Of a stretch of 64,000 nt of DNA, positions 48,709-64,000 are shown in pieces. The translations under genes were made by a program, and so were the position numbers. A model generated the notes under the pieces. The model did not search any database, had not been told where the DNA came from, and saw nothing but the letters and a program-made list of their open reading frames with translations. The DNA comes from Acidimicrobiia bacterium (GTDB lineage: Bacteria; Actinomycetota; Acidimicrobiia; IMCC26256; PALSA-555), in the NCBI GenBank assembly GCA_040881685.1, contig JBBECS010000019.1:26156-90155 (forward strand). The letters run 5' to 3'. The first letter of the stretch is position 1. The number at the start of each line of letters is the position of its first letter.

Positions 48709-49359
48709 TTACCGGTGAGATGCGCTAGCGATGCGGGCGAGGACATCGCCAGACTCTGCGACCTCGCCAAAGAATGTCGAGACCATGGTCAGCACGTACC
48801 GGTGCACGGAGTCCTCATCGAAGGCGCCCCACCCACGATCAGCTAGGGGAGCGGGGCCAGTCGCATCTGAGAGGTAGATGACCTCGAAGTCCCGGTAGAA
48901 CGCGTCGCGGATGGTGGACTCGCAACAGACGTTGCCAGCAACCCCCGCAACGATCAGGAGAGTGACCCCCAGGCCGCGCAAGAGCACCTCAAGGTCCGTT
49001 CCAAAGAAGGCACTGAATCGTCGCTTCGTGATGATGTGGTCAGTCGGTTCCACTTCGAGTGTTGGATAGAGCTCGACGCCGGGCGTGCTCTCACGCAGGG
49101 CCTGGCCACTTGCCGTCACAGGATGTAGCACTCCCACACGCCCGATATCGCTGCCGTCGGCACGATGAGCCTGTGCGGTGAAGATGACAGGGATCCCCTG
49201 CGCGCGACATACCGTGGAGACGCGGTTGATGGTCTCGACGGCTTCGCGCCCGATGGCATTCTCGTAGGGAGCACCGGGCGCAAGGAAGTCCCGCTGCATG
49301 TCAACAACGAGAAAGGCCGTGGACTCTGGCTGAATCTCGAACGTGGTCGGAACGAACAC
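48709..49359 (-). CDS. isochorismatase-like cysteine hydrolase
   Basis: This is a 216-residue cysteine hydrolase of the isochorismatase superfamily, which includes N-carbamoylsarcosine amidase, ureidoacrylate amidohydrolase and nicotinamidase. The catalytic triad is visible: Asp in VVDMQRDF, Lys in IITKRRFSAF and Cys in NVCCESTIRDA. The cis-peptide motif before the cysteine reads VAGNVC. Conservation points to an amidase or ureidase rather than isochorismate cleavage. It is the last gene of a three-gene minus operon with MaoC and a B12 subunit. Confidence 0.9.
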   Translation of the reverse strand: MFVPTTFEIQPESTAFLVVDMQRDFLAPGAPYENAIGREAVETINRVSTVCRAQGIPVIFTAQAHRADGSDIGRVGVLHPVTASGQALRESTPGVELYPTLEVEPTDHIITKRRFSAFFGTDLEVLLRGLGVTLLIVAGVAGNVCCESTIRDAFYRDFEVIYLSDATGPAPLADRGWGAFDEDSVHRYVLTMVSTFFGEVAESGDVLARIASASHR

Positions 49360-49371
49360 TGGTGTCAGGTT

Positions 49372-49848
49372 CTAGCTGAGATAGCGGATCACCATCTCAG
49401 CGACGCAGGCCGGTCTCTCGCTGCCGTCGATGTCGAAGGTCATGCCAAGGGCGACCTGAACGCCTCCATCCATCGCCTCGGCAGCATTGAGCCGGATGCT
49501 CAACCGAACCCTTGAACCCGAAGGCACCGGTGCAGGGAAGCGCACCTTGTTGAGGCCGTAGTTCACGACGGACGTCGCATCAGGAACCTGCAAGACCTCG
49601 GCGAGGAGCCAGGGACATAGCGACAGCGTGAAGAACCCGTGAGCGATGGTGGTTCCGAACGGACCGTCTTTGGCCGCGATGGGATCGACATGGATCCATT
49701 GGTGGTCCCGGGTCGCGTCAGCGAAGAGATCGATGTCGCGTTGCTCAATCGTCACCCACTCGGAAGAGCCAAGATCCTTGCCGACCAGTCCCGGCAGCTC
49801 ACTCACCTTCGGCGTCGACGCCGGCGCTTGTCGGGTGTGGTCGGTCAT
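49372..49848 (-). CDS. MaoC-like enoyl-CoA hydratase
   Basis: This is a 158-residue hot-dog (R)-specific hydratase. The catalytic region reads FADATRDHQWIHVD, where the family Asp and His are in DATRDHQWIH, followed by GTTIAHGFFTLSL and GLNKVRFPAPVPSGSRVR. This layout is that of the PhaJ-like/UPF MaoC group. It ends 12 nt before the isochorismatase-like gene and starts 32 nt after the B12 gene. It would add water to an enoyl-CoA produced in the same pathway. Confidence 0.9.
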   Translation of the reverse strand: MTDHTRQAPASTPKVSELPGLVGKDLGSSEWVTIEQRDIDLFADATRDHQWIHVDPIAAKDGPFGTTIAHGFFTLSLCPWLLAEVLQVPDATSVVNYGLNKVRFPAPVPSGSRVRLSIRLNAAEAMDGGVQVALGMTFDIDGSERPACVAEMVIRYLS

Positions 49849-49880
49849 GAACGCAGCTCCTCAAGTGGAATAGGGCGAGA

Positions 49881-50297
49881 TCAGCTCTTGCGCTCGGTGC
49901 GACCCGCAGCAGCACACTCGACGATTTCATCCAACGCGCTGCCGGTCGGAAAGACCGAATAGCCGAGCTCTGTGAGCGTTTGAACATCGTCTTGCGGGAT
50001 CACTCCACCGACAAGCAGCGCAACGTCTTGCCGGCCAGCAGCTCTCAGGCCCTCGGCCAAGCGCGTGCAGTAGTCGATGTGCGCGCCGGAAAGGATTGAC
50101 AGGCCGACAACATCGACGTCTTCGTCGAGGATCGTCGCGGTGATTGCATCAACAGATTGGTGGCGCCCGGTGTAAATCACTTCGAAACCGGCGTCGCGCA
50201 ACGCTCGCGTGACTACCTTGGCCCCGCGGTCGTGCCCGTCGAGACCAGGCTTCGCGATGAGAACTCGCACCGGGTGCTGATTCACCACGGCACGCAT
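49881..50297 (-). CDS. cobalamin B12-binding small subunit of an acyl-CoA mutase
   Basis: This is a 138-residue stand-alone B12-binding domain. The base-off/His-on motif DGHDRG has the cobalt ligand His22; GLSILSGAH and the GGVIP loop complete the cobalamin site. The length matches small subunits such as IcmB/HcmB, which pair with separate catalytic subunits. No mutase large subunit is adjacent on this strand; the nearest is 58460-60106. The ATG at 50297 (MRAVVNQHPVRVL) is chosen. It heads the minus operon and is divergent from the SDR gene over 72 nt. Confidence 0.9.
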   Translation of the reverse strand: MRAVVNQHPVRVLIAKPGLDGHDRGAKVVTRALRDAGFEVIYTGRHQSVDAITATILDEDVDVVGLSILSGAHIDYCTRLAEGLRAAGRQDVALLVGGVIPQDDVQTLTELGYSVFPTGSALDEIVECAAAGRTERKS

Positions 50298-50369
50298 CGT
50301 AGGTCGCAATATGCCGTCTTGTCGACGGTCGTCAGAATGTGGCAAGATCCCAGGCTCGGAGGGGGTTCC

Positions 50370-51116
50370 ATGCCGCTGAAGTTGGCTACATCACGCGTGC
50401 TCGTGACCGGGGGCGCACGGGGAATCGGTGAGGCGATTGCCCGCCGGCTCGCCACTGAAGGGGCGGCCGTGGCGATCCTGGACCTCGACGCGGATGCCGC
50501 CGCCGCCACCGCGTCGCAGATCGCAGGCACAACTGGTCAGGTCGTGGGATTCGGTTGCGACGTGTCGAATCGATCCCAGGTAGCCGAGGTGGTGCCCGCC
50601 GCCGCGGAGTCGCTCGGTGGCCTCGATGGCTTGATCACCAACGCAGGCGTTGCGCGAGACGGTTTCTTGCACAAGCTCGACGACGACGCGTGGGACACAG
50701 TCATCGCGGTCCACCTCACAGGCACGTTCGCGTGTCTGCGCGCTGCGAGCCCGTGGCTGCGCGCCGACGGCCCCGGACGTGTCGTGTGCATCTCGTCGAT
50801 CTCGGCCGCGATGGGCAACTTGGGGCAATCGAACTACACCGCGGCTAAGGGTGGCATCCTCTCGCTGGTGAAAACGGCCGCGCTCGAGCTTGCGCGCTTT
50901 CAGACCACCGTCAATGCCATTCGCCCGGGCTTCATCGACACCGCGATGACCCAAGCTGTCCCTCCTGATCTCCGCCAGAAGCTGATCGATGACATCCCGC
51001 TGGGCCGATCGGGCGAACCAGGGGACGTCGCTGGCGCCGTGGCATTCCTTTGCAGCGAAGACGCGTCGTACATGACGGGAGCCGTGCTGGACATCAACGG
51101 CGGGGCTTACATGTGA
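50370..51116 (+). CDS. SDR family oxidoreductase (FabG-like)
   Basis: This 248-residue classical SDR resembles 3-oxoacyl-ACP reductases and 3-hydroxyacyl-CoA dehydrogenases. It has TGGARGIGEA near residue 12, a DLDADA strand end that favours NAD(H), the ITNAGVA motif, the catalytic SSISA serine and YTAAK, and ends in the FabG-like LDINGGAYM. A good SD (GGAGG, spacer 7) fixes the ATG at 50370. It starts the plus-strand catabolic run and overlaps the next gene by 4 nt. Confidence 0.92.
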   Translation: MPLKLATSRVLVTGGARGIGEAIARRLATEGAAVAILDLDADAAAATASQIAGTTGQVVGFGCDVSNRSQVAEVVPAAAESLGGLDGLITNAGVARDGFLHKLDDDAWDTVIAVHLTGTFACLRAASPWLRADGPGRVVCISSISAAMGNLGQSNYTAAKGGILSLVKTAALELARFQTTVNAIRPGFIDTAMTQAVPPDLRQKLIDDIPLGRSGEPGDVAGAVAFLCSEDASYMTGAVLDINGGAYM

Positions 51117-52165
51117 GAGCGTCGCCTCCCATCCGCGAACGCTCGCAGCCGCGCTTTGGGGTCAACTTGAACAACCGTGAGCCTCTGCTCGCTCCGGGTT
51201 ACGACCTCAATGCCCTCTTGGCACTCGCAGAACAGGTCGAGGAATTGGGTTTCGATGCAGTGTTCGTGGGCGACAGCCTGTTCTCCAAGCCTCGATTCGA
51301 GGCATTGACACTCCTCGGTGCGCTCAGCCAGCGGACCTCGCGGGTGCAGCTCGGGACTTCAGCGCTCGTCGCGTCGCTGCGTGATCCTCTGTACCTCGCA
51401 CTGCAATGGGCGACGCTGGACCACCTCTCGAATGGGCGAATGATCCTCGGTGCAGGTGCTGGGAATGCCGAACCCCGGGTGAAGTTGGAGTTCGCCTCGC
51501 TCGGTCTCGAATTCGGCAAGCGAATGTCCCGGCTGGAGGAGTGCCTGCACGTCCTCAAGACCATCTGGAGCTCCGGATCGGTCACCTTCCACGGCAAGCA
51601 TTTCCAGTACGACGACGTGTCGTTCTACTCGGGTACCGAGCTAGCCCCTTTCACAGCGAAGCAGGGATCACCACCGATCTGGGTTGTCTCAAACCCGAAC
51701 ATCATGAACCCGGCGGGTGAACAACAGGTCGCCAACGCGTGCCGTCGAATCCTCACGTACGGCGATGGGTGGCTCACTTGTTGTCGAGCGGGTCACCCCG
51801 AAGAATTGGAACAGCAACTCGAGATGCTTGTACAGACGGCATCCGAGAGCGACATCAATCTCGACGAGTTCGATGTCGCCTATCAGGTCACTCTGACGTT
51901 GGCGGACACCACCGATGCTGCTCACGCAATGCAACGGGAGTACATCGACAGCTACTACCCCGAGCTCCGAGAGCACGTGAACTTGGTCGATTGGGGACCC
52001 GTCGGCTCGCCAGACGAAGTGACCGCGTGGTTTGATCGCTTTCTCGACGCTGGCGTCACCTACTTCGTGTGTCGGTTCGGTGCGATCGACCAGTTTGATC
52101 AAGTGAGTCGATTTACCCAGAGTGTGCTCCCGAAATTTCGCGGTGCGCAATCAACCGTGTCATGA
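51113..52165 (+). CDS. LLM class flavin-dependent oxidoreductase
   Basis: This is a 350-residue luciferase-like TIM-barrel oxidoreductase using FMN or F420. It begins PRFGVNLNNREPLLAPGYDL and has LGFDAVFVGDSLFSKPRFEA, then a RVQLGTSALVASLRDPLYLA strand-helix and LSNGRMILGAGAGN. Both F420-dependent reductases and FMN monooxygenases have this layout. The GTG at 51113 overlaps the SDR stop (GTGA), implying coupling. It may hydroxylate or reduce the pathway substrate. Confidence 0.9.
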   Translation: MRASPPIRERSQPRFGVNLNNREPLLAPGYDLNALLALAEQVEELGFDAVFVGDSLFSKPRFEALTLLGALSQRTSRVQLGTSALVASLRDPLYLALQWATLDHLSNGRMILGAGAGNAEPRVKLEFASLGLEFGKRMSRLEECLHVLKTIWSSGSVTFHGKHFQYDDVSFYSGTELAPFTAKQGSPPIWVVSNPNIMNPAGEQQVANACRRILTYGDGWLTCCRAGHPEELEQQLEMLVQTASESDINLDEFDVAYQVTLTLADTTDAAHAMQREYIDSYYPELREHVNLVDWGPVGSPDEVTAWFDRFLDAGVTYFVCRFGAIDQFDQVSRFTQSVLPKFRGAQSTVS

Positions 52166-52213
52166 CCGAGGTGAAGATCGGGCACCCCCAACGGGCGCAT
52201 CGTGAGGAGAGGC

Positions 52214-54280
52214 ATGCGACTCGGCTTTGACGTTGGCGGGACCTTCACAGACTTCGTCCTGCTGACCTCGAATGGACAGTTGTTCACGGGCAAGCGCTTG
52301 ACGACCTATCCGGATCCGTCCGACGCGTGCCTCGCCGGCCTCCAGGAGATCCTCTACCGCGGTGCCGCGCAATGGTCGGACCTCGAGCAGCTCATCCACG
52401 GCACGACTTGGGGTTCCAATGTCATCATCGAGCGCAAGGGAGTCGGTGTCGGCCTGGTCACGACCGCAGGCTTCCGAGACGTGCTGGCAATTGCCCGCGA
52501 GAAGCGATACTCGCTCTACGACCTCCAGATCGAGAAGCCTGAGCCCCTTGTCGGCCGATCTTCGATCTGGGAGATCCGGGAGCGAACGTTGGCGGACGGC
52601 TCCGTGGCGACGCCGTTGGATGAGCCGGCCGCGCGAGAAGTGGTGCAACAGATTCGTTCAGCCGGGATCCAGAGCCTCGCCATCTGCTTCTTGCACAGCT
52701 ACCGGAACGCAACCAACGAACGACGGTTTGCCGAAATCGTGCACGACGTCGCTCCCGAGATCGCGGTGTCGCTGTCATCCGAAGTGTCGCCGCAGATCCG
52801 CGAGTACGAGCGCACGAGTACGACGGCCGTGAACGCCTATGTGATGACCGCCGTGCGCGCTTACTTGCAGAGAATGCTCGAGGAAGTCCGCGACACGGGC
52901 TACAAGGGACGGCTGTTCATCATGCAATCGAACGGTGGAATTGCCACCGCCGAGGCCATGACCCGACTTCCTGTGCGCATGATCGAGTCTGGTCCCGCCG
53001 GTGGCGCCATCGTTGCTGCGCTCTACGGCGGCCTGACCAACAACGCCGATGTCGTCGCGTTCGACATGGGGGGCACGACCGCAAAGCTGGCGATGATCAA
53101 GGACGGCGTGCCGGAGACGGTCAGCCAATTCGAGTTGCACAAGGTGGACCTCCAGGCCGGCAGCGGCATCCCGATGAGCGTGCGCTCCATCGACTTGGTC
53201 GAGATCGGTGCCGGTGGGGGCAGCATCGCCGAAGCCGGGATGGGGACGATTCAGGTCGGGCCCGAAAGCGCGGGGTCGACCCCAGGACCCGCGTGTTACG
53301 GCCGAGGCGGCGACCACGCGACCGTGACGGACGCGAACGTGGTGTTGGGTTATCTGAGTGCCGCGAACTTCGCGGGTGGCACCATGACACTGGACGCAGA
53401 AGCAGCCCACGACGCGGTCCGACGACACGTCGCGGAACCTCTCGGGATCAGCCTCGAGGAGGCCGCCTGGGGGATCCATCGCATCGCCAACCTGAACATG
53501 GAGCTCGCTGCCCGTGTCGTGTCGATCGACCGTGGGTACGATCCGCGCGATCTGGCGTTGGTGGCCACCGGTGGATGCGGACCTGCGCACGCGTGTCGAA
53601 TGGCGTCAGCTCTCGGCATGCCGACGGTCATCGTGCCTGCGGCAGCTGGCGTTGCTTCAGCAATCGGCATGCTCGCCGCTGACGTGCGGTTTGACGTGTC
53701 GCGCAGCCTCGTCGGCACCCTTGCCGACACTGACCTTAAGGCATTGAACCACCTATTCACTGAACTTGAGGCCGAAGCATCCCGCACTATTCGAGAATCA
53801 GGCGCGGCAGAGAGCCCCGTCTTGGTCCGAGAGGTGGAACTCCGCTACATCGGACAAGGTTATGAGCTCTCGATCGAGGTCCCAGCTGGCGACCTCACCG
53901 AAGCTGAGATGGCGTTGCTCCGTCAGCGCTTCGAGAAGGCGTACATCGCTCGCTATGGATTCAGCAGCGGAGACCAGAGTATCGAGGCAACGACGTGGAA
54001 GGTCACCGCGTATGGACCGACTCCCGAGATCAACCTCGGTCGAATTACGCGAGGGGCTGGGTTGCCAGACGACGCTTTGCGCGAGACGCGGCCAGCGTAT
54101 TTTCCCGAGTATGAGGGATACGTCGACACGCCCGCCTATTCGCACGCTGCGTTGACGTCAGGAGCGGAGATCGTTGGTCCGGCGGTAATCGAAGAACGCG
54201 AGTCCACCGCCGTGGTGCCACCTGGCTTCCGAGCGGTCGTCGATGACTTCGGCACGTTGATCATCCGAAATGAGCCGTAG
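52214..54280 (+). CDS. hydantoinase/oxoprolinase family protein, HyuA-like
   Basis: This is a 688-residue ATP-dependent subunit of the hydantoinase A/oxoprolinase/acetone carboxylase superfamily. The N-terminal phosphate loop is FDVGGTFTDF, the second ATP loop is FDMGGTTAKLAM, and the metal region GAGGGSIA and RGGDHATVTDANVVLG are typical. The usual partner HyuB (about 550 residues) does not follow. GAGGAGAGG gives a strong SD for the ATG at 52214. It could open a cyclic amide ring or carboxylate a ketone, but the missing partner makes function uncertain. Confidence 0.9.
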   Translation: MRLGFDVGGTFTDFVLLTSNGQLFTGKRLTTYPDPSDACLAGLQEILYRGAAQWSDLEQLIHGTTWGSNVIIERKGVGVGLVTTAGFRDVLAIAREKRYSLYDLQIEKPEPLVGRSSIWEIRERTLADGSVATPLDEPAAREVVQQIRSAGIQSLAICFLHSYRNATNERRFAEIVHDVAPEIAVSLSSEVSPQIREYERTSTTAVNAYVMTAVRAYLQRMLEEVRDTGYKGRLFIMQSNGGIATAEAMTRLPVRMIESGPAGGAIVAALYGGLTNNADVVAFDMGGTTAKLAMIKDGVPETVSQFELHKVDLQAGSGIPMSVRSIDLVEIGAGGGSIAEAGMGTIQVGPESAGSTPGPACYGRGGDHATVTDANVVLGYLSAANFAGGTMTLDAEAAHDAVRRHVAEPLGISLEEAAWGIHRIANLNMELAARVVSIDRGYDPRDLALVATGGCGPAHACRMASALGMPTVIVPAAAGVASAIGMLAADVRFDVSRSLVGTLADTDLKALNHLFTELEAEASRTIRESGAAESPVLVREVELRYIGQGYELSIEVPAGDLTEAEMALLRQRFEKAYIARYGFSSGDQSIEATTWKVTAYGPTPEINLGRITRGAGLPDDALRETRPAYFPEYEGYVDTPAYSHAALTSGAEIVGPAVIEERESTAVVPPGFRAVVDDFGTLIIRNEP

Positions 54281-54305
54281 CGACGAGCGCAACAGGAGGC
54301 GCACC

Positions 54306-54446
54306 ATGGCATCCGCCTATTCGATGGCGAGCGAGGCAGCCGACACGCCGCCACCTGACGGCCGTAATCCATGCGCTATAGGCTCCGGCGCGCGATCGGT
54401 TCGGCAAGCGGCTCCGGACCTGTTGGGCATCGGTAGCGGGATCTGA
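54306..54446 (+). CDS. small 46-residue ORF with a near-perfect ribosome binding site
   Basis: This is a short frame starting at ATG 54306, preceded by AGGAGG (54294-54299) with a 6-nt spacer, the best SD in this part of the window. The product begins MASAYSMASEAADTPPPDG and ends GIGSGI; I recognise nothing in it. It lies between HyuA and the PaaX-type gene, where HyuB would be expected. It may be a real small protein, a leader peptide or a truncated remnant using the old hyuB start. Confidence 0.4.
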   Translation: MASAYSMASEAADTPPPDGRNPCAIGSGARSVRQAAPDLLGIGSGI

Positions 54447-54468
54447 CGGGGACCGGAGTGCTGTAGGA

Positions 54469-55284
54469 ATGCCCGCGACGCAACCAAAGTCACTCATCCT
54501 CGATGTCTATGCCGTGTTCGTCCGGCGACTTGGAGGTTGGATCGCCGTCGCAGACCTTGTGGTCTTGATGGCAGATCTTGGAATCGACGAGCAAGCGGCG
54601 CGGTCGGCCATTTCCCGCATGAAGCGAGCTGGCCTTCTTCGAGCCGAATCGCGGAGCGAGTCCGCCGGATACGCGCTGACCGACGAGGCATTGGACATCC
54701 TGGCCGCCGGCGATCAGCGGATCTTCAACTCCGAACGACCAGCCGACTTGATCGATGGCTGGGTGATCGCCGTGTTCTCGGTGCCCGAGAAGGAGCGAGA
54801 CCAGCGGTACTCGTTGCGGTCGCGCCTCGCATGGCTCGGTTTCGGACAGGTCGAAGCCGCAGTGTGGATCGCACCACGTCGCATACTCCCCGATGTGAAG
54901 CGTGTGCTCGAAGGCAACAAGTTGGACCGCTACGTTCATCTCTTTGAGGGCGCATACTCGGCGTTTCTCGAACTGCCTGAATTTGTGTCGCGCGCATGGG
55001 ACCTCGATCATCTGCGAGCGTTGTACAGCGAGTTCCTCTCGCGTCACGAGCCTGCCCTCAAACGTTGGCGAAATGACGGCAGCATGACCGATCGTGACGC
55101 CTTCATCGATGTCATGCGGCTGGTGTCAGAATGGCGTCGCTTGCCGTACATGGACCCTGGCCTTCCCCCTGAGCTGCTCCCTGAGGACTGGGAGGCCGAA
55201 CGGGCGCGCCGCGTGTTCAACGAGCTCCGCGGGTTGATCGAGATGCGCGCCTTCAAGCGGGTCATGGACGTCGTCGAGGGCTGA
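54469..55284 (+). CDS. PaaX family transcriptional regulator
   Basis: This 271-residue regulator is of the PaaX family, repressors of phenylacetate and other aromatic pathways that usually sense a CoA thioester. The N-terminal winged-helix region is VFVRRLGGWIAVADLV through AARSAISRMKRAGLL. A central Cas2-like segment, DGWVIAVFSVPEKERDQRYS, and the C-terminal helical domain follow. It sits inside the catabolic run, between HyuA and the AMP ligase, which it probably controls. The stop is 4 nt before the ligase. Confidence 0.9.
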   Translation: MPATQPKSLILDVYAVFVRRLGGWIAVADLVVLMADLGIDEQAARSAISRMKRAGLLRAESRSESAGYALTDEALDILAAGDQRIFNSERPADLIDGWVIAVFSVPEKERDQRYSLRSRLAWLGFGQVEAAVWIAPRRILPDVKRVLEGNKLDRYVHLFEGAYSAFLELPEFVSRAWDLDHLRALYSEFLSRHEPALKRWRNDGSMTDRDAFIDVMRLVSEWRRLPYMDPGLPPELLPEDWEAERARRVFNELRGLIEMRAFKRVMDVVEG

Positions 55285-55288
55285 TCCG

Positions 55289-56884
55289 GTGGCGCGTGCT
55301 CTCAGCCCCTTTCTGACGAAAGGCCTGCCTCGCCGCGACGAGTGGCCCCACTTCCAGTTTTCGCTTCCATCGCTCCAATACCCGAGCAAGCTCAATGCTG
55401 CTACCGAGCTCCTCGATCGTGCAGTGGAGCGCGGTTGGGGGCCACGGCCCTGCCTCATCACCGATGACGAGGAATGGACGTATTCGGCGCTCCTCCAACG
55501 AGCGAACCGCCTTGCGCACGTCCTGGTCGATGACCACGGGCTCCAACCCGGCGATCGCATCGTGCTGCGGAGCTGGAACTCCCCATGGACCGTTGCATGG
55601 TGGTTTGCAGCCCTCAAGGTCGGAGGCGTGGTCGTAACTACAAGCCCGTTGCTGAAAGAAAAGGAGATCCGCGATGTTCTCGAGATGACGCAGCCAGCCA
55701 TCGCCGTCTGTCACGACACCGTTAGTACCGAGCTTGAGGCCGCAAGTCCGCCGAGCATCCTTTGCTGGGGTCATGGGGGCTCGAGCGATCCGTTGCGCCG
55801 CGCCGAGCACCAGCCAGACTCGTTCTCGGACGACGATTCCGACGCCGATGACGTCTGTCTAGTGGGCTCGACTTCAGGCACGACCGGCAAGCCAAAGGCG
55901 CCGTGTCACTTCCATCGGTCCGTGCTCGCAATCGCCGACACCTTCTCGGCCGAGATCTTGCGCCCACGCTCGGATGATGTCTTCGCCGGAACACCGTCAC
56001 TCGCCTTCACCTATGGGCTCGGTGCGCTCATGGTATTTCCGATGCGGGTTGGAGCAGCAAGTGTCTTGTTCGAGCGGGGTGGGCCGGATGTCCTCGCCGA
56101 TGCAATCGACCGACACTCTGTGTCGGTGTGCTTCACTGCACCGAAGGCTTATCTCGACCTGGCCGACCTCGCTCGCGACCACAGCTTCTCGTCGCTTCGC
56201 ATTGCAGTATCCGGCGGAGAGCACCTGCCGGCCGCGACCTCCGCGGCATTTCGCGAGGCAACCGGCGTCGCCATCACCAATGGGATCGGGAGCACCGAAC
56301 TGCTGCACAACTTCATCTCCTCACCCGGCGCCGAGCTCCCACCGGGAGCTACCGGAAGAGCGATTCCCGGATTCGAGGCTCGGGTGGTCGGCGACGAGAT
56401 GGTCGATGCCGCGCCCGGGGAACCGGGGCAACTTGCCGTGCGAGGGCCCACCGGCTGCCTGTACCTCCATGATGAGCGTCAGCGTGAGTACGTGCGGCGC
56501 GGCTGGAACTACACCGGGGATGTGTTCATACGTGACGAGGACGACGTGTTCTGGTACCAGGGCCGGGCAGACGACATGGTTGTTGCGTCCGGCTACAACG
56601 TGTCGCCGGTCGAGGTCGAGGAGATCCTCCTGGGGCATCCACTGGTGGCGGACTGTGGCGTGGCGAGCGCCGAGACCGCCAGTGGGACTTCGATTGTCAA
56701 GGCCTGGGTCGTCCTGGCGGAGTCACTCGATTCTGAGCCGACCGACATGCTCCGGCAGTTCGTCAAGTCCCGACTTGCGGTCTACAAGTGTCCTCGCGAG
56801 ATCGAGTACGTCACGTCTCTCCCTCGAACGGCCAATGGCAAGCTCCGCCGGCGGGCATTGGGGAGGAGTGCTGCCGAGGCGTGA
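55289..56884 (+). CDS. benzoate-CoA-ligase-like AMP-forming acyl-CoA synthetase
   Basis: This 531-residue ligase resembles benzoate- and 2-aminobenzoate-CoA ligases. It has STSGTTGKPKAPCHFHRSV as P-loop, GTPSLAFTYGLGALMVFP, the family-typical SGGEHLPAATSAAFREATG, NGIGSTELLHNF, a GWNYTGDVF segment and the catalytic lysine in RTANGKLRRRAL. GTG at 55289, 4 nt after the PaaX-type gene. A PaaX-type repressor next to a ring-acid ligase suggests the inducer is this enzyme's CoA product. Substrate inferred, not shown. Confidence 0.92.
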   Translation: MARALSPFLTKGLPRRDEWPHFQFSLPSLQYPSKLNAATELLDRAVERGWGPRPCLITDDEEWTYSALLQRANRLAHVLVDDHGLQPGDRIVLRSWNSPWTVAWWFAALKVGGVVVTTSPLLKEKEIRDVLEMTQPAIAVCHDTVSTELEAASPPSILCWGHGGSSDPLRRAEHQPDSFSDDDSDADDVCLVGSTSGTTGKPKAPCHFHRSVLAIADTFSAEILRPRSDDVFAGTPSLAFTYGLGALMVFPMRVGAASVLFERGGPDVLADAIDRHSVSVCFTAPKAYLDLADLARDHSFSSLRIAVSGGEHLPAATSAAFREATGVAITNGIGSTELLHNFISSPGAELPPGATGRAIPGFEARVVGDEMVDAAPGEPGQLAVRGPTGCLYLHDERQREYVRRGWNYTGDVFIRDEDDVFWYQGRADDMVVASGYNVSPVEVEEILLGHPLVADCGVASAETASGTSIVKAWVVLAESLDSEPTDMLRQFVKSRLAVYKCPREIEYVTSLPRTANGKLRRRALGRSAAEA

Positions 56885-57006
56885 GCGGACCACGCGGGCC
56901 CAAACCGGCCATGAGGGGCGCCTGACGCTCGTCTAGCGATCGTCACAGAAATGCCATAATGTGGCTTCGCACGCCGCCGCAGGACAGGGGCAGACGCCAC
57001 CAGACG

Positions 57007-58473
57007 ATGAAACTGCTCGAAGCCCTCAATGTGGGCCCGGTCACATTGCCGAACCGCTTGGCCGTTCCAGCGATGGTCACACGTTTGTCGGGTGAAGACG
57101 GCCGGGTGAACGACGATGTCGTTGACCGATACGTGCGATACGCCGAAGGAAACGTTGGCCTGATCGTGGTCGAGGCCTCGTCAGTGCACGGCGGAAAGTC
57201 GGGACCGCTTCTGCGCGTGTCCGACGACGAGTTCATCCCTGGCTTGCGTCAATTGACGTCGGCGTGCCACGCGGCATCGGACTCCAAGGTCTTCCTCCAG
57301 ATCATCCACTTCCTGAAGATCGCCAGGTCGGGATGGCGGGAGAAGGTGTCAGAGGTCGATGCGGAACGCCTCGAAGAGCTCCCGGAGCTTTTCACCTCCG
57401 CGGCTCTTCGCGCGCAAGAAGCTGGTTTCGACGGCGTCGAGCTCCACATGGCGCATGCGTACACACTTTCGTCGTTGCTCTCGCGTCACAACCGTCGGTC
57501 CGACAAGTACGGCCGCACGCTCGAGAACCGTCTGCGCCTTCCCTCAAAGGTTCTCAGGACCGTGCGCGCGAGGGTCGACCCGTCGTTTGGGGTCGCGGTC
57601 AGGTTCGATGCCGACGAGAGCATTCGGCGTGGGTACTCGGTGCTCGAGGCCGGCCAAATGGCGGTCCGTTTCGCCGAGCTCGGTGCTGGATACGTGTCCT
57701 TGTCTGCAGGTGGCAAGTTCGAGGACGCGGTTCATCGCGAGGGCAAGCCGCTGTATCCGTACACCGGTTACAGCGGCGATCGCTGTATGCCCGGCGACAC
57801 GTATGTCGACGGTGCGAACAGTTGGATGGCTGAGGCAGTGAAGAGCACATTGCGGTCGCATGGTTGCGACACGCCCGTGCTCGCCACGGGCAAGATCGGA
57901 AGCGCGCAGCTCGCGGAGGACTTGTTGCAGCGCGGGGTATGCGACATCGTGGGGATGGCACGCGCCCTCCTTGCCGATCCATACCTTCTCAAGAAGTTCC
58001 GTGAGGGTCGTGAGGACGAGACGGTGCGCTGCATCTATTGCAACGTCTGCAAGTCACTGGACGAGAACTTCAACACGGTCGTGTGTTACTTGTGGCCGAA
58101 GGACGCGATCCAGGCTCCCCGTCCGGACGAGCAGAGTCAGGTGCCGATCCGCTGGCCTGAGAATCTCGAACCCCTCACGGCGAGCGCCGAGGCAGGACAG
58201 ATTCGATTGAAGTGGACACGACCGGAGGGCCCGGCCGTCGGTTTCGACGTGCTGCGCTCCGAGGACCTCGGTCCATATGAGCGCCTCACGTCATGCACGC
58301 GAGCCTCGCAGCTCGACGATTCTGTCCTGAGGGGTCGCTCGTACCGGTATCGCGTAGTTCCCTACGATGAGAGTGGTCGTCGCGGTGTGCCATCCAACAT
58401 CGTCGAGATCGAGCTTGGTCCGGATGATGCCGACGAGGCGATGGCATTGGAGGATGTAGATGTCTCGCTCTGA
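57007..58473 (+). CDS. Old Yellow Enzyme-like flavin oxidoreductase with C-terminal fibronectin-III-like domain
   Basis: This is a 488-residue protein. Residues 1-340 form an OYE TIM barrel (VTLPNRLAVPAMVTRL; HMAHAYTLSSLLSRHNRRSD). Residues about 339-360 carry CIYCNVC and a fourth cysteine 12 residues on (C-x2-C-x2-C-x11-C), as in the [4Fe-4S] site of 2,4-dienoyl-CoA reductases. The expected FAD/NADPH domain is absent. Residues about 386-473 instead look like a fibronectin type III module (IRLKWTRPEGPAVGFDVLRS; YRYRVVPYDESGRRG). The ATG at 57007 is used. Its end overlaps the mutase start by 14 nt. It may reduce an unsaturated acyl-CoA. Confidence 0.85.
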   Translation: MKLLEALNVGPVTLPNRLAVPAMVTRLSGEDGRVNDDVVDRYVRYAEGNVGLIVVEASSVHGGKSGPLLRVSDDEFIPGLRQLTSACHAASDSKVFLQIIHFLKIARSGWREKVSEVDAERLEELPELFTSAALRAQEAGFDGVELHMAHAYTLSSLLSRHNRRSDKYGRTLENRLRLPSKVLRTVRARVDPSFGVAVRFDADESIRRGYSVLEAGQMAVRFAELGAGYVSLSAGGKFEDAVHREGKPLYPYTGYSGDRCMPGDTYVDGANSWMAEAVKSTLRSHGCDTPVLATGKIGSAQLAEDLLQRGVCDIVGMARALLADPYLLKKFREGREDETVRCIYCNVCKSLDENFNTVVCYLWPKDAIQAPRPDEQSQVPIRWPENLEPLTASAEAGQIRLKWTRPEGPAVGFDVLRSEDLGPYERLTSCTRASQLDDSVLRGRSYRYRVVPYDESGRRGVPSNIVEIELGPDDADEAMALEDVDVSL

Positions 58474-60106
58474 GCAGGCTGATCCAACGATCCGAGACGA
58501 TGGTCTTCGCAAAGTGCACACGTCGTCAGGCGTCGAGATCAAGCCTGTCTACGGGCCAGGTGACGTCTCGAACCGTGTCTACGAGCGAGACAGCGGAGAC
58601 CCGGGGGAGTATCCCTATCTCCGCGGGCCGTACCGTGACATGTACCGCCAAAAGTTGTGGACCATGCGGACCTACACAGGATTTGGGACGGTCCGCGAGA
58701 CGAATGCTTGGCATCGACGTCTGCTCGAGCAGGAAGGCGTGCACGGGCTGTCAACGGCGTTGGATCTCCCTACGCAGATGGGTTTCGACTCTGACTACCC
58801 CGAGTGGCGTTCAGAGGTTGGCCGCGTCGGTGTAGCGATTGACTCACTTGCAGATTTCGAAGTTCTGTTCGACGGTATTCCGCTCGAAGACATCTCGTGC
58901 TCGTTCACCATCAACGCGCCCGCCTTTCTCTTCCTGGCTCTGTACGAAGCTGTCGGCGAAAAGAAGGGGATTCCTGCTGACCGCCTGCGGCCGATCGTCC
59001 AAAACGACATCCTCAAGGAGTTCTTCGCTCGAGGCGCGTGCGTCTTTCCGGTGGAACCAAGCCTGAGGATCGTGGCTGACACCTTTGCGTATTGCTCGAA
59101 GGTCATGCCCAAGGCGAACCCGATCTCCGTGTGTGGCTACCACATACGCGAATCGGGTGCGAACGCAGTGCAGGAGATGGGCTTCGCGATCTCGAACGCG
59201 ATCGAATATGTGAATCGTGCAATAGAGCGCGGGATACCAGTAGACGCGTTCGCACCAAGGATTTCCTGGAACCTTGGCGCGTTCATGAATCTCTTCGAAG
59301 AAGTGGCGAAGTATCGGGCTTCACGCCGTCTCTGGGCGCGGATCATGCGCGAGCGATTCGGGGCCACCGACGAAAGGTCATGGCGTTTCTTGTGGTTCGC
59401 GGGAACGTGCGGGTCGACGTACAGCGCGCGCCAGCCATTGAACAACGTGGTTCGAGGCACCGTAGAGGCGATCGCGCTTGTGCTCGGAGGTGTGCAGAGC
59501 TTCACGGTGAATACCTGGCAAGAGGCGTATCGAATTCCCGACGAGGAAGCGATGCTGTTGGCGTTGCGGACTCAGCAGATCCTCGGGTACGAAGCGGGAT
59601 TGGCGGACACTGCTGATCCGCTGGCGGGTTCGTACTACGTCGAGGCGCTGACAGACGAGTATGAGGAAAGAATCCGTGAGCTCATCGATGACATTGATGA
59701 GCGTGGTGGCATGGCTAGCTGCATCGAAAGTGGCTATGTCCAACGGCTCGTGTTGGACGAGGCCTATCGCGATCAGCGTGCCGTCGAGTCAGGCGAACGA
59801 CTGATCGTCGGCGAGAACATCTTCGAAACAGACGACGCGCAGGCACCTACGTCGCTGTTCGAGTACAACGAAGGAGCGCTCGCTGAGCAGCTCGAACGGC
59901 TCGACCACGTTCGAAACTCCCGAGATGACCAGGCGGTGAAACAGTCGCTTGCTCGCCTGAAGGATGTCGCGGCCAATCCCGACGAGAACATCATGCCGGC
60001 GACCATTGAGTGCGTTCGCAACTACGCAACCGTCGGCGAGATTTTCGATGCGCTGCGAGATGTCTTTGGGGTCTATCGGGAGCCCATCGCCGCGATCTTC
60101 GGCTAA
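58460..60106 (+). CDS. B12-dependent acyl-CoA mutase catalytic subunit, module 1
   Basis: This 548-residue TIM-barrel subunit is like the catalytic half of methylmalonyl-CoA mutase, without a B12-binding domain. The active-site GYH motif has His228, QNDILKEFFAR gives Arg191, and RTYTGFGT gives Tyr72; these match methylmalonyl-CoA mutase Tyr89, Arg207 and His244 (Propionibacterium numbering). It must pair with a separate cobalamin subunit, such as 49881-50297. GGAGG 6-8 nt upstream supports the ATG at 58460, inside the OYE gene end. It ends 9 nt from the convergent second mutase. Confidence 0.93.
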   Translation: MSRSEQADPTIRDDGLRKVHTSSGVEIKPVYGPGDVSNRVYERDSGDPGEYPYLRGPYRDMYRQKLWTMRTYTGFGTVRETNAWHRRLLEQEGVHGLSTALDLPTQMGFDSDYPEWRSEVGRVGVAIDSLADFEVLFDGIPLEDISCSFTINAPAFLFLALYEAVGEKKGIPADRLRPIVQNDILKEFFARGACVFPVEPSLRIVADTFAYCSKVMPKANPISVCGYHIRESGANAVQEMGFAISNAIEYVNRAIERGIPVDAFAPRISWNLGAFMNLFEEVAKYRASRRLWARIMRERFGATDERSWRFLWFAGTCGSTYSARQPLNNVVRGTVEAIALVLGGVQSFTVNTWQEAYRIPDEEAMLLALRTQQILGYEAGLADTADPLAGSYYVEALTDEYEERIRELIDDIDERGGMASCIESGYVQRLVLDEAYRDQRAVESGERLIVGENIFETDDAQAPTSLFEYNEGALAEQLERLDHVRNSRDDQAVKQSLARLKDVAANPDENIMPATIECVRNYATVGEIFDALRDVFGVYREPIAAIFG

Positions 60107-60115
60107 CGGGAACGC

Positions 60116-61636
60116 TCAGAGCGCGCGCGTTGGCCGCCAGGCGCCCACGATGTCGCGGATCCGGCCAATGATCTCGCCAACGGTCGCGTAGGCCTTCACC
60201 GCCTCGATGCACGCATCCATCACGTTCTCGTTGCCGCGTACTGCCGCGGTGATGTGATCAAGGGCCGTTTTGACGGCGTCGCTGTCGCGCCGCGCCCTCA
60301 GGGTGGAGAGCGCATCACGCTGTGCTTGTTCCGTCCTGGGATCGATCTCGAAAGCCGGGAGCGCGATCGGCTCTGAAGTGAAGCGGTTCACGCCGACCAC
60401 GGTCGTCTCACCGGTTTCGACGTTGCGTGCTTGGCGGTAGGCGGCCTCGTTGAGTTCGTTCTGGAACCACCCGCTGCTGATGCACGCGATGGAACCGCCG
60501 CGTTGGTCGATGCGGTCCATCACCCCGAGGACTTGCGCTGCAAGCTCGTCGGTCAACGCCTCGACCGCGTATGACCCGGCGAAGGGGTCGAGAGTCTCGG
60601 TCACACCGGTTTCAAAGCACAGGATCTGCTGGGTTCGCAGTGCCACCGTGGCTGCGTCGCTTGTCGGCGTGCCGAGCGCTTCGTCGTACGCGCAGACGTG
60701 GAGTGTCTGGACGCCACCAAGAGCGGCCGCCAAGCCTTCGACCGTGGTACGGCTGATGTTGTTCAGTGGCTGCTGCGCGGTGAGCGACGAACCCGCGGTG
60801 AACGCGAAGATACGCAACTGGCTCGACTTCGGGTCCTTGGCGCCGTAACGGTCCCGCAGAAGGTGGGCCCAGACCCGGCGCGCGGCCCGGAACTTGGCGA
60901 CCTCTTCGAGGATCTCGATACCGGACGAGAGGAACGCGAAGAGACTTGGCGCGAACTGGTCGACTGACAGTCCCCGGGCAATGGCGGCATCGAGGTACGC
61001 AATGGCGTTGGCGAACGTGAAGGCGATTTCCTGCACCGCATCGGATCCGGACTCGCGGATGTGGTAGCCGGAGATGGCGAGGGGCACCCAGTTGGGTACT
61101 TCCCGGGCGCAGTATTCGATCACGTCGACGGCCAAGCTCAGGGACGGTTCGGGCTCGAAGATCTGAGTGCCGCGAGCGATGAACTCTTTGAGGACATCGT
61201 TCTGGATGAACAGACCGAACTCGTTCGGGTCGACACCACGTTGCTCGGCGAGCGCGACGAACATGGCGGCCCACAGGTAGCCAATGGAATTTGCCGTCGT
61301 GCGAACTTGGGAGATCTGCTCGAGCGGAATGTCACGCATGAGGATCTCGATGTCGGCGAGACTGTCGATCGCCACACCGACCTTGCCGACCTCGCCCAGG
61401 GCCAAGTGGTCATCGGAGTCCAGGCCAAGCTGTGTGGGAAGGTCGAGAGCCACCGAGAACCCGGTCTGGCCCGCGTCGAGCAGCTCACGGAAGCGCTGGT
61501 TGGTGTCGGCGGCAGAACCGAAGCCGGCGTACTGCCCCATGATCCAGGGTCCCGGCTGGTCGGTGACCCCGCGGGTGAACGGGAACTGGCCGGGCCGTTC
61601 GGCTCCTTCCGGGGCGTAATCGGCCCGAAGGGTCAT
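60116..61636 (-). CDS. B12-dependent acyl-CoA mutase catalytic subunit, module 2
   Basis: This is a 506-residue catalytic subunit paralogous to the plus-strand mutase but about 36 residues shorter at the N-terminus. Equivalent residues are Tyr36 in GQYAGFGS, Arg155 in KEFIARGTQIF and His192 in SGYHIRESG. FDLP of methylmalonyl-CoA mutase is LDLPTQLGLDSD here. It has no B12 domain; the small subunit at 63210-63641 in the same run is the likely partner. The ATG at 61636 overlaps the ligase stop by 4 nt (ATGA). Confidence 0.93.
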   Translation of the reverse strand: MTLRADYAPEGAERPGQFPFTRGVTDQPGPWIMGQYAGFGSAADTNQRFRELLDAGQTGFSVALDLPTQLGLDSDDHLALGEVGKVGVAIDSLADIEILMRDIPLEQISQVRTTANSIGYLWAAMFVALAEQRGVDPNEFGLFIQNDVLKEFIARGTQIFEPEPSLSLAVDVIEYCAREVPNWVPLAISGYHIRESGSDAVQEIAFTFANAIAYLDAAIARGLSVDQFAPSLFAFLSSGIEILEEVAKFRAARRVWAHLLRDRYGAKDPKSSQLRIFAFTAGSSLTAQQPLNNISRTTVEGLAAALGGVQTLHVCAYDEALGTPTSDAATVALRTQQILCFETGVTETLDPFAGSYAVEALTDELAAQVLGVMDRIDQRGGSIACISSGWFQNELNEAAYRQARNVETGETTVVGVNRFTSEPIALPAFEIDPRTEQAQRDALSTLRARRDSDAVKTALDHITAAVRGNENVMDACIEAVKAYATVGEIIGRIRDIVGAWRPTRAL

Positions 61637-63165
61637 CGGTTCACCCTTTCGGCCTCGAGGTCCAGACGAAGCTGCTTTTTCGAGATCTTGCCCGTGGCCT
61701 GAAGCGGGAACGCATCGACCTGCCGAATGTCCTTCGGCTTCTTGTAGGCGGAGAGTCGCTGGCGACAGTGGGCGAGCACCGACTCCACGGCGACGTGCTC
61801 ACCGTCCCGAACGGAGTAGAGCGCAACGATGCGCTGGCCCCATTCCGCGTCCTGAACGCCAACAACAGCGACCTCGGCGATGCCTGGCAGCTCAGCGATG
61901 ACGTCTTCGACCTCGCGGGGATAGACGTTGTAGCCCCCGGAGATGATCATGTCGCCCTTGCGGTCTACGAGGTACACCCGTCCGGCCGAATCGAGCTTGC
62001 CGAGGTCGCCCGTGTGGAGCCATCCATCGACCACGGACTTGGCCGCGGATTCATCCGCGATACCCCAGTAGCCGGACATCGTGTGGTCACCACGGGTGAT
62101 GAGCTCGCCGACCTCTCCAGGGGGGACCGTGGAACCGTGCTCGTCGACGATGCGAACCTCGACGCCAGCGCACGGAAAACCAGCCGACGTGAGCAGCTCA
62201 GGATGCGACGTGATGCCCAGCGCGTGATCGTCCGCCGAGAGCACCGTCACGGGCGGGATCGCCTCGACCAACCCGTACATTTGGATGAGGTTCGAAGTGA
62301 TCCGTTCGAAGCTTTCGCGGATCTGCTCCGATGGCATCGGCGAGCCTGCATAGACCAGGCGTTGCAGGCGTGATGTATCCAACGCGTTCAAGTCGTCGTG
62401 CATCAAGAGTCGCGCCACCATCGTGGGTACGAGCACTGTCCCCGTCACCCCACGGTGGTTGACCGCCTCGAACAGGTCGTCGGGATCGAAGGTTGGGAGA
62501 ATGAGTTGGCGGGCACCCATCAGGAAGTGTGGAAGCACGAAGAGGCCGCTGGCGTGGGTGATGGGACCGGCATGGCACCAGACATCGGCCGGCGTCGGCG
62601 TCATGATGTCAGTGAGGATGTTGTAGAGGCTCGCGATGCGATTCTGATGGGTCCGAGTCGCACCCTTGGGCTTTCCGGTGGTGCCGGACGAGTAGTTGAG
62701 TGAGATGAGCGTGTCCGGCGCAATGTCGTCTGTGAGATGGGGTTCGGAATCCGCAAGGAACCGGTCGTAGGGAATGCCGTCTCCATCGCCGATCACGATC
62801 GTGTGGTCCACGACATCCCGCAGTTCCTGAATCCTGTCTGCGAACTCGGCGCGATGAATGAGGGCTTTGGCGTCGCAGTCGCGTGCGATGCGACACCAGT
62901 CGCTTGGGCTCAGGCGATAGTTCAAGGCGACTCGGACGAGCCCAGCCGAGGAGATGCCGAAGTCGGTCTCGACGTAGGCGATCCCGTTCGATTGGAGATC
63001 AAGGACGCGGTCGCCCGGCGCCAATCCCAGGTTGAGCAGGCCACGACCGAGGCGCCGCGAGCGGTCGGCGACCTCGACAAAGGACAGCTGTCGCCCTGGT
63101 TCTTCGAGGGCGATGCCGGTGCCATGCCGCTGCGCTGCCCGCGCCACGAGAGTGCCGAGGTTCAT
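61633..63165 (-). CDS. AMP-forming acyl-CoA synthetase of mutase module 2
   Basis: This 510-residue ligase has P-loop NYSSGTTGKPKGATRTH, then GPITHASGLFVLP, MYGLVEAIPP, LHTGDLGKLDSAG, GGYNVYPREVED and the catalytic lysine in ATGKISKKQLR. The motifs fit medium-chain or aromatic acid ligases. AGGAGAGG precedes the ATG at 63165. It is coupled to the mutase gene, so it probably makes the mutase substrate directly. A Crp-like site lies just upstream. Confidence 0.92.
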   Translation of the reverse strand: MNLGTLVARAAQRHGTGIALEEPGRQLSFVEVADRSRRLGRGLLNLGLAPGDRVLDLQSNGIAYVETDFGISSAGLVRVALNYRLSPSDWCRIARDCDAKALIHRAEFADRIQELRDVVDHTIVIGDGDGIPYDRFLADSEPHLTDDIAPDTLISLNYSSGTTGKPKGATRTHQNRIASLYNILTDIMTPTPADVWCHAGPITHASGLFVLPHFLMGARQLILPTFDPDDLFEAVNHRGVTGTVLVPTMVARLLMHDDLNALDTSRLQRLVYAGSPMPSEQIRESFERITSNLIQMYGLVEAIPPVTVLSADDHALGITSHPELLTSAGFPCAGVEVRIVDEHGSTVPPGEVGELITRGDHTMSGYWGIADESAAKSVVDGWLHTGDLGKLDSAGRVYLVDRKGDMIISGGYNVYPREVEDVIAELPGIAEVAVVGVQDAEWGQRIVALYSVRDGEHVAVESVLAHCRQRLSAYKKPKDIRQVDAFPLQATGKISKKQLRLDLEAERVNR

Positions 63166-63187
63166 GCCTCTCCTGATCTACTGAACG

Positions 63188-63203
63188 TGTGACGGTCGCC
63201 ACA
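63188..63203. promoter_or_regulatory. Crp-like palindrome upstream of the module 2 ligase
   Basis: TGTGA-CGGTCG-CCACA matches TGTGA-N6-TCACA at nine of ten positions. It lies in the 44-nt gap between the B12 subunit stop and the ligase start. A second promoter for ligase-mutase within the run is possible, with TTATTG-like bases beside it. Confidence 0.35.
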
Positions 63204-63209
63204 ATAACG

Positions 63210-63641
63210 TCATAGAGGCTCGGCGGGCTCGTCGCGGCGGGCGGCAAGCGCACCCTTGAGCCACGAGACAATCTCGCCGAGGGGTGCCCCAGGTGTGAAG
63301 ACACGGGCAATCCCGGCGTGCTCGAGTTGCGCGATGTGCGCGTCAGGGATCACGCCGCCGCCGAACACGAGGACGTGGTCGAGGTGACGGGCGCGGAGTT
63401 CCCGGACGACGGCGGGGAACACGGTGGCGTGTGCTCCGGAGAGGGATGACAGGCCGACAGCATCCACATCTTCCTGGAGGGCGACCTCGGCGATGGCCTC
63501 GGGGGACTGTCGCAGCCCGGAGTAGATGACTTCGAACCCGGCGTCGCGCAAGGTCATCGCTACGACCTTGGCACCGCGGTCGTGACCGTCGAGGCCGGGC
63601 TTGGCGACGAGCACACGCCAAGTGCGGGGCGAGCTCATCAT
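63210..63641 (-). CDS. cobalamin B12-binding small subunit of mutase module 2
   Basis: This is a 143-residue B12-binding domain. The DGHDRG motif holds the axial His20, with GLSSLSGAH and FGGGVIPDAH completing the site. It is clearly paralogous to the 49881-50297 protein (shared KPGLDGHDRGAKVV). Start is ATG 63641, overlapping the upstream stop (ATGA); the next codon is also ATG. It belongs to the run ATP-grasp ligase, B12 subunit, AMP ligase, mutase and is the natural partner of 60116-61636. Confidence 0.92.
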   Translation of the reverse strand: MMSSPRTWRVLVAKPGLDGHDRGAKVVAMTLRDAGFEVIYSGLRQSPEAIAEVALQEDVDAVGLSSLSGAHATVFPAVVRELRARHLDHVLVFGGGVIPDAHIAQLEHAGIARVFTPGAPLGEIVSWLKGALAARRDEPAEPL

Positions 63642-64000
63642 TTCGCGCGCGGTTCGACGTAGGCCGCGTCGAGGATACGGATCCCGGTGGGGAACACGGC
63701 AACGGGATTGAGGTCGAGCTCGAACCCCGCGGGCCATCCGTCGACGATCTGTGAGACCGTCGCGACGAGCTGAGCGAGGGACGGAATGTCACCCGCGGGC
63801 TGCCCTCGTGTGCTCGTGAGGAGCCGTCCGACCGCGGTTTCGGCGATCATCGCCGCGGCCTCGTGCATATCGACTGGGGCCAGGCGCACGGTGACGTCAC
63901 CCATCGCCTCGGTGTGAATGCCGCCGGTGCCGACGCTGACGACCGGGCCCAACGGCGTCGATGCGACGCCCACCAGAACTTCGGTGTGCCCAGTGACCAT
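63638..64000 (-). CDS. C-terminal part of an ATP-grasp ADP-forming acyl-CoA synthetase (partial)
   Basis: At least 120 residues are visible; the 5' end lies beyond the window. The sequence HTEVLVGVASTPLGPVVSVG, then GGIHTEAMGDVTVRLAPVD and ELDLNPVAVFPTGIRILDA, matches the C-terminal ATP-grasp lobe of acetate-CoA ligase (ADP-forming)-type enzymes. Such enzymes interconvert acyl-CoA plus ADP with acid plus ATP. It is coupled to the B12 subunit by ATGA. It may activate an acid or conserve energy from the pathway's acyl-CoA product. Confidence 0.85.
   Translation of the reverse strand: MVTGHTEVLVGVASTPLGPVVSVGTGGIHTEAMGDVTVRLAPVDMHEAAAMIAETAVGRLLTSTRGQPAGDIPSLAQLVATVSQIVDGWPAGFELDLNPVAVFPTGIRILDAAYVEPRAK

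Follow-up and report, generated by a model that had tools for sequence, protein, structure and literature searches.

Two candidate dicarboxylyl-CoA mutase modules in a lower-GC island of an Acidimicrobiia bacterium may belong to a divergent indoleacetate-type degradation route

Known substrates of B12-dependent carbon-skeleton mutases are few. In methylmalonyl-CoA mutase (MCM), Tyr89 and Arg207 bind the free carboxylate of the substrate. Isobutyryl-CoA mutase (ICM)-like sequences carry Phe89/Gln207 at these positions, and HcmA of 2-hydroxyisobutyryl-CoA mutase (HCM) carries Ile89/Gln207 plus an extra Asp. The iaa operon of Aromatoleum encodes IaaGH, a (2-aminophenyl)succinyl-CoA/benzylmalonyl-CoA mutase, together with IaaF, IaaL and IaaCE, and a GGG motif has been tied to the decarboxylating benzylmalonyl-CoA dehydrogenase IaaF (PMC8360864). 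Here we analyzed a 64,000-nt stretch of DNA (the window; C19:26156-90155) from the 3.1-Mb genome of an uncultured Acidimicrobiia bacterium, in which two split mutases, MUT1 and MUT2, share one catabolic block. This block makes up the left portion of a longer lower-GC island, which spans at least 55 kb and extends beyond the window end. By analogy with the iaa pathway, we lean towards the view that the island serves the degradation of indoleacetate, or of a similar N-heteroaryl-acetic acid, through a divergent iaa-type route with two different dicarboxylyl-CoA mutases.

Both catalytic subunits retain Tyr89, Gln197, Arg207, Tyr243, His244 and Glu370 (MCM numbering). Because the MCM-type pair Tyr89/Arg207 is kept, MUT1 and MUT2 should act on succinyl- or malonyl-type CoA esters, i.e. 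they should be dicarboxylyl-CoA mutases whose substrates we infer from these residues. The initial annotation had likened them to isobutyryl- and 2-hydroxyisobutyryl-CoA mutases, an analogy that fails with Tyr89/Arg207 in place of Phe or Ile89/Gln207. HcmA (4r3u) is the best PDB match for both; an ICM or HCM type was ruled out for both by residues (Tyr, Arg and Ala at 89, 207 and the HcmA-specific Asp site) and by clade. MCM membership was likewise rejected, as both fall outside the MCM clade and have His328 and Gln330 replaced. Chance adjacency had been linked to a placement of both in a characterized clade such as MCM plus ICM; in our phylogeny neither grouped with MCM or with HCM/ICM-type enzymes. 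A recent tandem duplication was also rejected, since the two are not sisters (sister grouping, approximately unbiased (AU) test p = 1.8e-5).

The pocket of MUT1 shares Asn287 with IaaG. Positions 328 and 330 are Phe and Gly in MUT1, Ile and Ala/Gly in IaaG, and His and Gln in most other homologues. IaaG-specific residues are found at 9/59 positions in MUT1, 8/59 in MUT2 and 0-3 in six control mutases. In the tree without long branches, MUT1 and IaaG group with a support of 92/84, compared with a strict clade-support threshold of 95/80. A grouping of MUT2 with IaaG is absent from the best tree and was not rejected (AU p = 0.156). No MUT1 orthologues above about 51% identity were found in the order, in the even phylum sample, or in plasmids.

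For comparison, iaaF was located in Aromatoleum buckelii using a primer from PMC8360864 as a pattern, and the surrounding operon was then retrieved. In the acyl-CoA dehydrogenase of the island, GGG replaces the YEG of normal enzymes. The protein shares 46-48% identity with the IaaF proteins of A. buckelii and the genome G591 and groups with both (nested supports 89/92 and 96/91). A search of the class with this dehydrogenase gave no matches, but its threshold was too strict for 46% homologues, so it says little. Overall, almost every enzyme of the anaerobic indoleacetate pathway has a counterpart in the island. Counterparts are present for the molybdenum (Mo)-hydroxylase S, M and L subunits, HyuA, HyuB, IaaL, IaaG, IaaH, IaaF and the thiolase, with identities to the iaa proteins spanning 26-58% (BLASTP). 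B12-binding subunit 1 is 57.5% identical to IaaH of G591 and 51% to A. buckelii IaaH (BLASTP), and MUT1 is its likely partner. Assignment of the aryl thiolase was helped by a relative with 50% identity that sits in a type II polyketide synthase (PKS) cluster containing a phenylalanine ammonia-lyase (PAL). On Pseudonocardia plasmid pLS2-2 (L050), a type II PKS cluster combines an aromatic ammonia-lyase with an aryl thiolase, which suggests a benzoyl-CoA starter unit. Separately, a Massilia putida plasmid (NZ_CP019037, 18001-19107; L044) carries a GGG acyl-CoA dehydrogenase with its own electron-transfer flavoprotein genes and no mutase alongside, possibly another decarboxylating dehydrogenase.

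Inside the window, the island comprises the following genes:

43483..44595, plus strand: BMP/PnrA-type substrate-binding lipoprotein (Pfam Bmp 3.9e-30); first low-GC3 island gene, at the break in GC3 (G+C content at third codon positions)
44634..45923, plus strand: M20-family amidohydrolase (Pfam Peptidase_M20 1.1e-10)
46095..47672, minus strand: AMP-forming acyl-CoA ligase (Pfam AMP-binding; BLASTP 33% to A. buckelii IaaB)
48709..49359, minus strand: isochorismatase-fold hydrolase (Pfam Isochorismatase 1.7e-38)
49372..49848, minus strand: MaoC-type enoyl-CoA hydratase (Pfam MaoC 1.1e-26)
49881..50297, minus strand: B12-binding small subunit 1 (TIGR00640, 135 bits; DGHDRG; BLASTP)
50397..51116, plus strand: short-chain dehydrogenase (SDR; Pfam adh_short_C2 3e-64)
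51050..52165, plus strand: F420-type oxidoreductase of the luciferase-like monooxygenase (LLM) class (Pfam Bac_luciferase; TIGR03619, 132 bits, under cut-off); real start probably further downstream
52202..54280, plus strand: HyuA1, hydantoinase/oxoprolinase A subunit (Pfam; BLASTP 35% to A. buckelii IaaC)
54469..55284, plus strand: PaaX-type regulator (Pfam PaaX, PaaX_M, PaaX_C)
55289..56884, plus strand: benzoate-CoA-ligase-type ligase (TIGR02262, 294 bits, under cut-off; BLASTP 46% to the ligase adjoining the A. buckelii iaa operon)
56959..58473, plus strand: Old Yellow Enzyme (OYE)-family NADH:flavin oxidoreductase (Pfam Oxidored_FMN 1.9e-43; partial match to the salicylyl-CoA 5-hydroxylase reductase domain)
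58460..60106, plus strand: MUT1 catalytic subunit, 548 aa (TIGR00641; IaaG-like pocket); last of the plus-strand gene run, its start overlapping the OYE gene end by 14 nt
60116..61636, minus strand: MUT2 catalytic subunit, 506 aa (TIGR00641; five-member clade)
61633..63165, minus strand: AMP-forming acyl-CoA ligase C; 4-nt overlap with MUT2
63210..63641, minus strand: B12-binding small subunit 2 (TIGR00640, 156 bits; DGHDRG); start overlaps the stop of the preceding gene
63638..64000 (whole gene to 65851), minus strand: ADP-forming acyl-CoA synthetase, 3' end (Pfam Succ_CoA_lig, CoA_binding, ATP-grasp_5)

Beyond the window end, in window numbering, follow:

65800-66168: RidA-like open reading frame (ORF), recognized by eye
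66081: SDR
66781: PcaF-like thiolase
68091: MenB/BadI-like hydrolase
68908: aryl-type thiolase
70114: acyl-CoA dehydrogenase with the GGG motif
71304: class III CoA-transferase
72509-74251: HyuB1
74281: HyuA2
76454: HyuB2
80421: amidohydrolase
83126: second LLM enzyme
84299-89632: BMP transporter, second Bmp protein and ABC genes
89711: SDR
90736: Mo-hydroxylase small subunit
91113: Mo-hydroxylase large subunit
93641: Mo-hydroxylase FAD subunit

As initially annotated, the catalytic ORFs converge with facing stop codons and 9 nt between them, both lack a B12 domain (TIGR00641, 619 and 562 bits; cut-off 304), and two separate B12 subunits lie in the block (TIGR00640 matches, DGHDRG, internal ATG starts at 50297 and 63641). 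The three AMP-forming ligases, MaoC, SDR, OYE-family protein and PaaX regulator are all Pfam-supported. HyuA1 and the continuation of the block past the window end had been overlooked. Since the host genome has seven PF01642 genes, on six contigs, a spacing of 9 nt is not background. The mutase pair is real and more than chance, and of another type than first proposed.

By analogy with Aromatoleum, which supplies every reaction and substrate that follows, the directly observed gene content, motifs, clades and composition can be arranged into a putative pathway. The BMP ABC transporter would take up the substrate, the Mo-enzyme would hydroxylate the ring, and HyuAB would open the lactam in an ATP-dependent step to give an aryl-succinate. 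The ligases and class III CoA-transferase would serve CoA activation and transfer, and MUT1 with B12 subunit 1 would convert aryl-succinyl-CoA to a benzylmalonyl-type CoA. Oxidative decarboxylation by the GGG acyl-CoA dehydrogenase would then lead to a cinnamoyl-type CoA, from which MaoC, SDR and aryl thiolase would release (amino)benzoyl-CoA and acetyl-CoA. On the opposite strand, MUT2, B12 subunit 2, ligase C and the ADP-forming ligase would form a second module, in which MUT2 would isomerize another substituted succinyl- or malonyl-CoA, most likely from a related substrate entering the same lower pathway. The uncultured bacterium may in this way open and break down indole-type acids without an oxygenase.

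This second module is compact: in the minus-strand run of ADP-forming ligase, B12 subunit 2, ligase C and MUT2, neighbors overlap or lie 45 nt apart, and MUT2 and B12 subunit 2 are likely partners sharing one operon. MUT2 forms a clade with four sequences of the genus g287 (G519, G552, G568, G644; support 100/100). The five members share Gly82, Ile/Val85, Gly87, Arg164, Phe285, Phe328 and Phe/Tyr330, where canonical homologues have Arg/Lys82, Thr85, Arg87, Ser164, Ser285, His328 and Gln330; MUT2 itself has G82, I85, G87, R164, F195, F285, F328 and F330 and keeps Y89, R207 and H244. Several of the seven shared positions contact CoA or the thioester arm. Judged by its residues, the clade has a rebuilt CoA/thioester site and no apparent counterpart among the characterized enzymes compared. 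One could read these substitutions, along with the loss of R82, T85, R87, S285, H328, Q330 and the N-terminal arm, as signs of a degenerate, non-catalytic paralogue that supports MUT1 like the beta chain of actinobacterial MCM. We regard this as improbable: Y89, Q197, R207, Y243, H244 and E370 are kept, also in four relatives with the same substitutions, MUT2 shares an operon with a B12 subunit and a ligase of its own, and structurally it comes closest to active alpha-type chains, at a template modelling (TM) score of 0.85 versus about 0.6 for beta chains. The predicted MUT2 model (TM 0.85 to HCM 4r3u) was used for the fold only, which it predicts to be intact; it was built from a thin alignment of 7 sequences from window and genome loci and has a predicted local distance difference test (pLDDT) score of 70.7.

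In all four g287 genomes, a ligase-C-type gene follows the MUT2-type gene. In g287, a MeaB gene also adjoins the MUT2-type gene (Pfam-confirmed in G644). The four genomes belong to a family of the same class other than that of the host, and in 3/4 the MUT2-type cluster has a second mutase, MUT3. The earlier statement that split mutases usually occur singly is therefore too strong, and the exact order of the block was not found elsewhere. A bolder proposal, which we put forward tentatively, is that MUT2 founds a new B12 mutase subclass. In it, Gly, Ile/Val, Arg and aromatic residues would take the place of CoA and thioester contacts (R82, T85, R87, S164, S285, H328, Q330) that most of the compared MCM/ICM/HCM-type sequences conserve, giving a different acyl-carrier binding or the rearrangement of a bulky aromatic skeleton novel to the family, and the multi-mutase clusters of this bacterial class would be B12 routes for N-heteroaromatic or other complex acids. 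The MUT3 paralogue lacks Tyr89, Arg207 and His244 (Leu, Cys and Asn instead) and has an adjoining B12 subunit; it occurs in the host genome (L015:9378-10994; C36:21395-22954) and at L091:10493-12139, with 60% identity between host and g287. A further split mutase clade, made up of host C32:86320-87858 (L003) and sequences of G004, G028, G038 and G043, has Ala243, Asp247, Gly328 and Val330, with a B12 subunit adjoining in C32 and G004.

Of the initial idea of two rearrangements, two complete split modules in one catabolic block stood, and two different rearrangements are plausible. In a successive scheme, MUT1 would act early on aryl-succinyl-CoA and MUT2 later on a branched dicarboxylyl-CoA after ring opening by the BadI/MenB-like hydrolase and PcaF-like thiolase. 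The dicarboxylyl type of both mutases, the BadI/MenB-like and PcaF-like genes adjoining the MUT2 operon, and the single copies of GGG dehydrogenase, CoA-transferase and Mo-enzyme in the island agree with such a scheme. Against it, HyuA, HyuB, BMP proteins, ligases and LLM enzymes also occur in duplicate, pointing to parallel inputs, and g287 has the MUT2-ligase pair without MUT1. We consider two successive steps unlikely; two branches agree somewhat better with the duplication of HyuAB, transporter proteins and ligases.

The HyuAB proteins also bear on a different assignment, degradation of aryl ketones or other aromatics, with HyuA/HyuB forming an acetophenone-carboxylase-like enzyme that supplies the aryl thiolase, while the mutases would serve a separate short-chain dicarboxylic acid pathway. 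A locus of G003 (C436, 12750-23057; L052) encodes an aryl thiolase, HyuA, HyuA, HyuB and a small zinc-ribbon-like ORF and resembles an acetophenone carboxylase cluster. The island thiolase is 59% identical to that of G003, and HyuA2 reaches 409 bits for acetophenone carboxylase gamma. Conversely, HyuA1 scores higher for caprolactamase (NCBIfam alpha subunit, 566 bits, under cut-off) than for Apc models, HyuA1 and HyuB1 are closer to IaaC and IaaE than to the G003 proteins, an ApcB-like small subunit was not noticed in the island, and the GGG dehydrogenase and IaaG-type pocket are left unexplained. We consider this assignment doubtful.

The island is set apart by composition. GC3 is 0.87 up to about 43 kb and 0.74 from there to the contig end at 100553 (43 vs 30 genes, p = 8e-12), the block carries on for ~36 kb beyond the window end, and an IS110-like transposase, recognized by eye, lies close to the contig end. 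A tRNA was looked for at the left edge (about 43 kb) and none was found. The composition break and transposase are the pattern of an acquired island, and foreign-looking DNA in an uncultured bacterium forms part of the iaa-type island reading, which as a whole we hold with modest confidence.

Several observations weigh against an iaa-type route. Support for MUT1 with IaaG is under the strict threshold, and identities to iaa proteins are modest (mutase 45%, HyuA 32-35%, HyuB 26-29%, CoA-transferase 32%, Mo large subunit 27%). A canonical iaa operon is present in G591 (C46, L053-L054), a genome of the same class, with 54-65% identity for mutase, dehydrogenase and CoA-transferase, and G591 is the sole IaaG match at this level among 296 class genomes. 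The contiguous iaaG-iaaH-iaaF order of G591 and A. buckelii is absent from the island, where the genes are scattered on both strands. Because the G591 operon is so much closer to iaa, the island is a divergent relative and no plain iaa operon. In addition, the Mo-enzyme scores best with a CO-dehydrogenase-like group, HyuA2/HyuB2 could be an acetophenone-type carboxylase, and MUT2 lacks ~45 N-terminal residues that its g287 relatives have, so that its function may be lost. The genome may be metagenome-assembled and the contig chimeric.

The two-mutase island and its decarboxylating-type dehydrogenase offer directly testable candidates for aryl-succinyl-CoA chemistry outside known iaa operons, and the rebuilt substrate site of the MUT2 clade could help in the study of specificity and in enzyme engineering. 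Among known systems, HcmA (4r3u) and isobutyryl-CoA mutase share the split architecture and fold with the island enzymes but have Ile or Phe89/Gln207 (with Asp in HCM) instead of Tyr89/Arg207. The MCM alpha subunit shares Tyr89, Arg207, Gln197, Tyr243, His244 and Glu370, whereas the island mutases lack a fused B12 domain, have His328/Gln330 replaced and form separate clades. The g287 clusters have the same active-site substitutions as MUT2 and a ligase of the same type after the mutase gene, but their second mutase is MUT3 rather than MUT1, their hydrolases are others and MeaB adjoins the mutase. Identities to the proteins of the Aromatoleum iaa operon are mostly 26-51%. Unlike that operon, the island has MaoC plus SDR in place of the 3-hydroxyacyl-CoA dehydrogenase/enoyl-CoA hydratase (HAD-ECH) fusion, as well as a PaaX regulator, BMP transporter, second mutase and second HyuAB pair. 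With that operon it shares a split mutase with a carboxylate-type site and altered pocket, a GGG decarboxylating-type dehydrogenase, CoA-transferase, HyuAB, Mo-hydroxylase and aryl thiolase.

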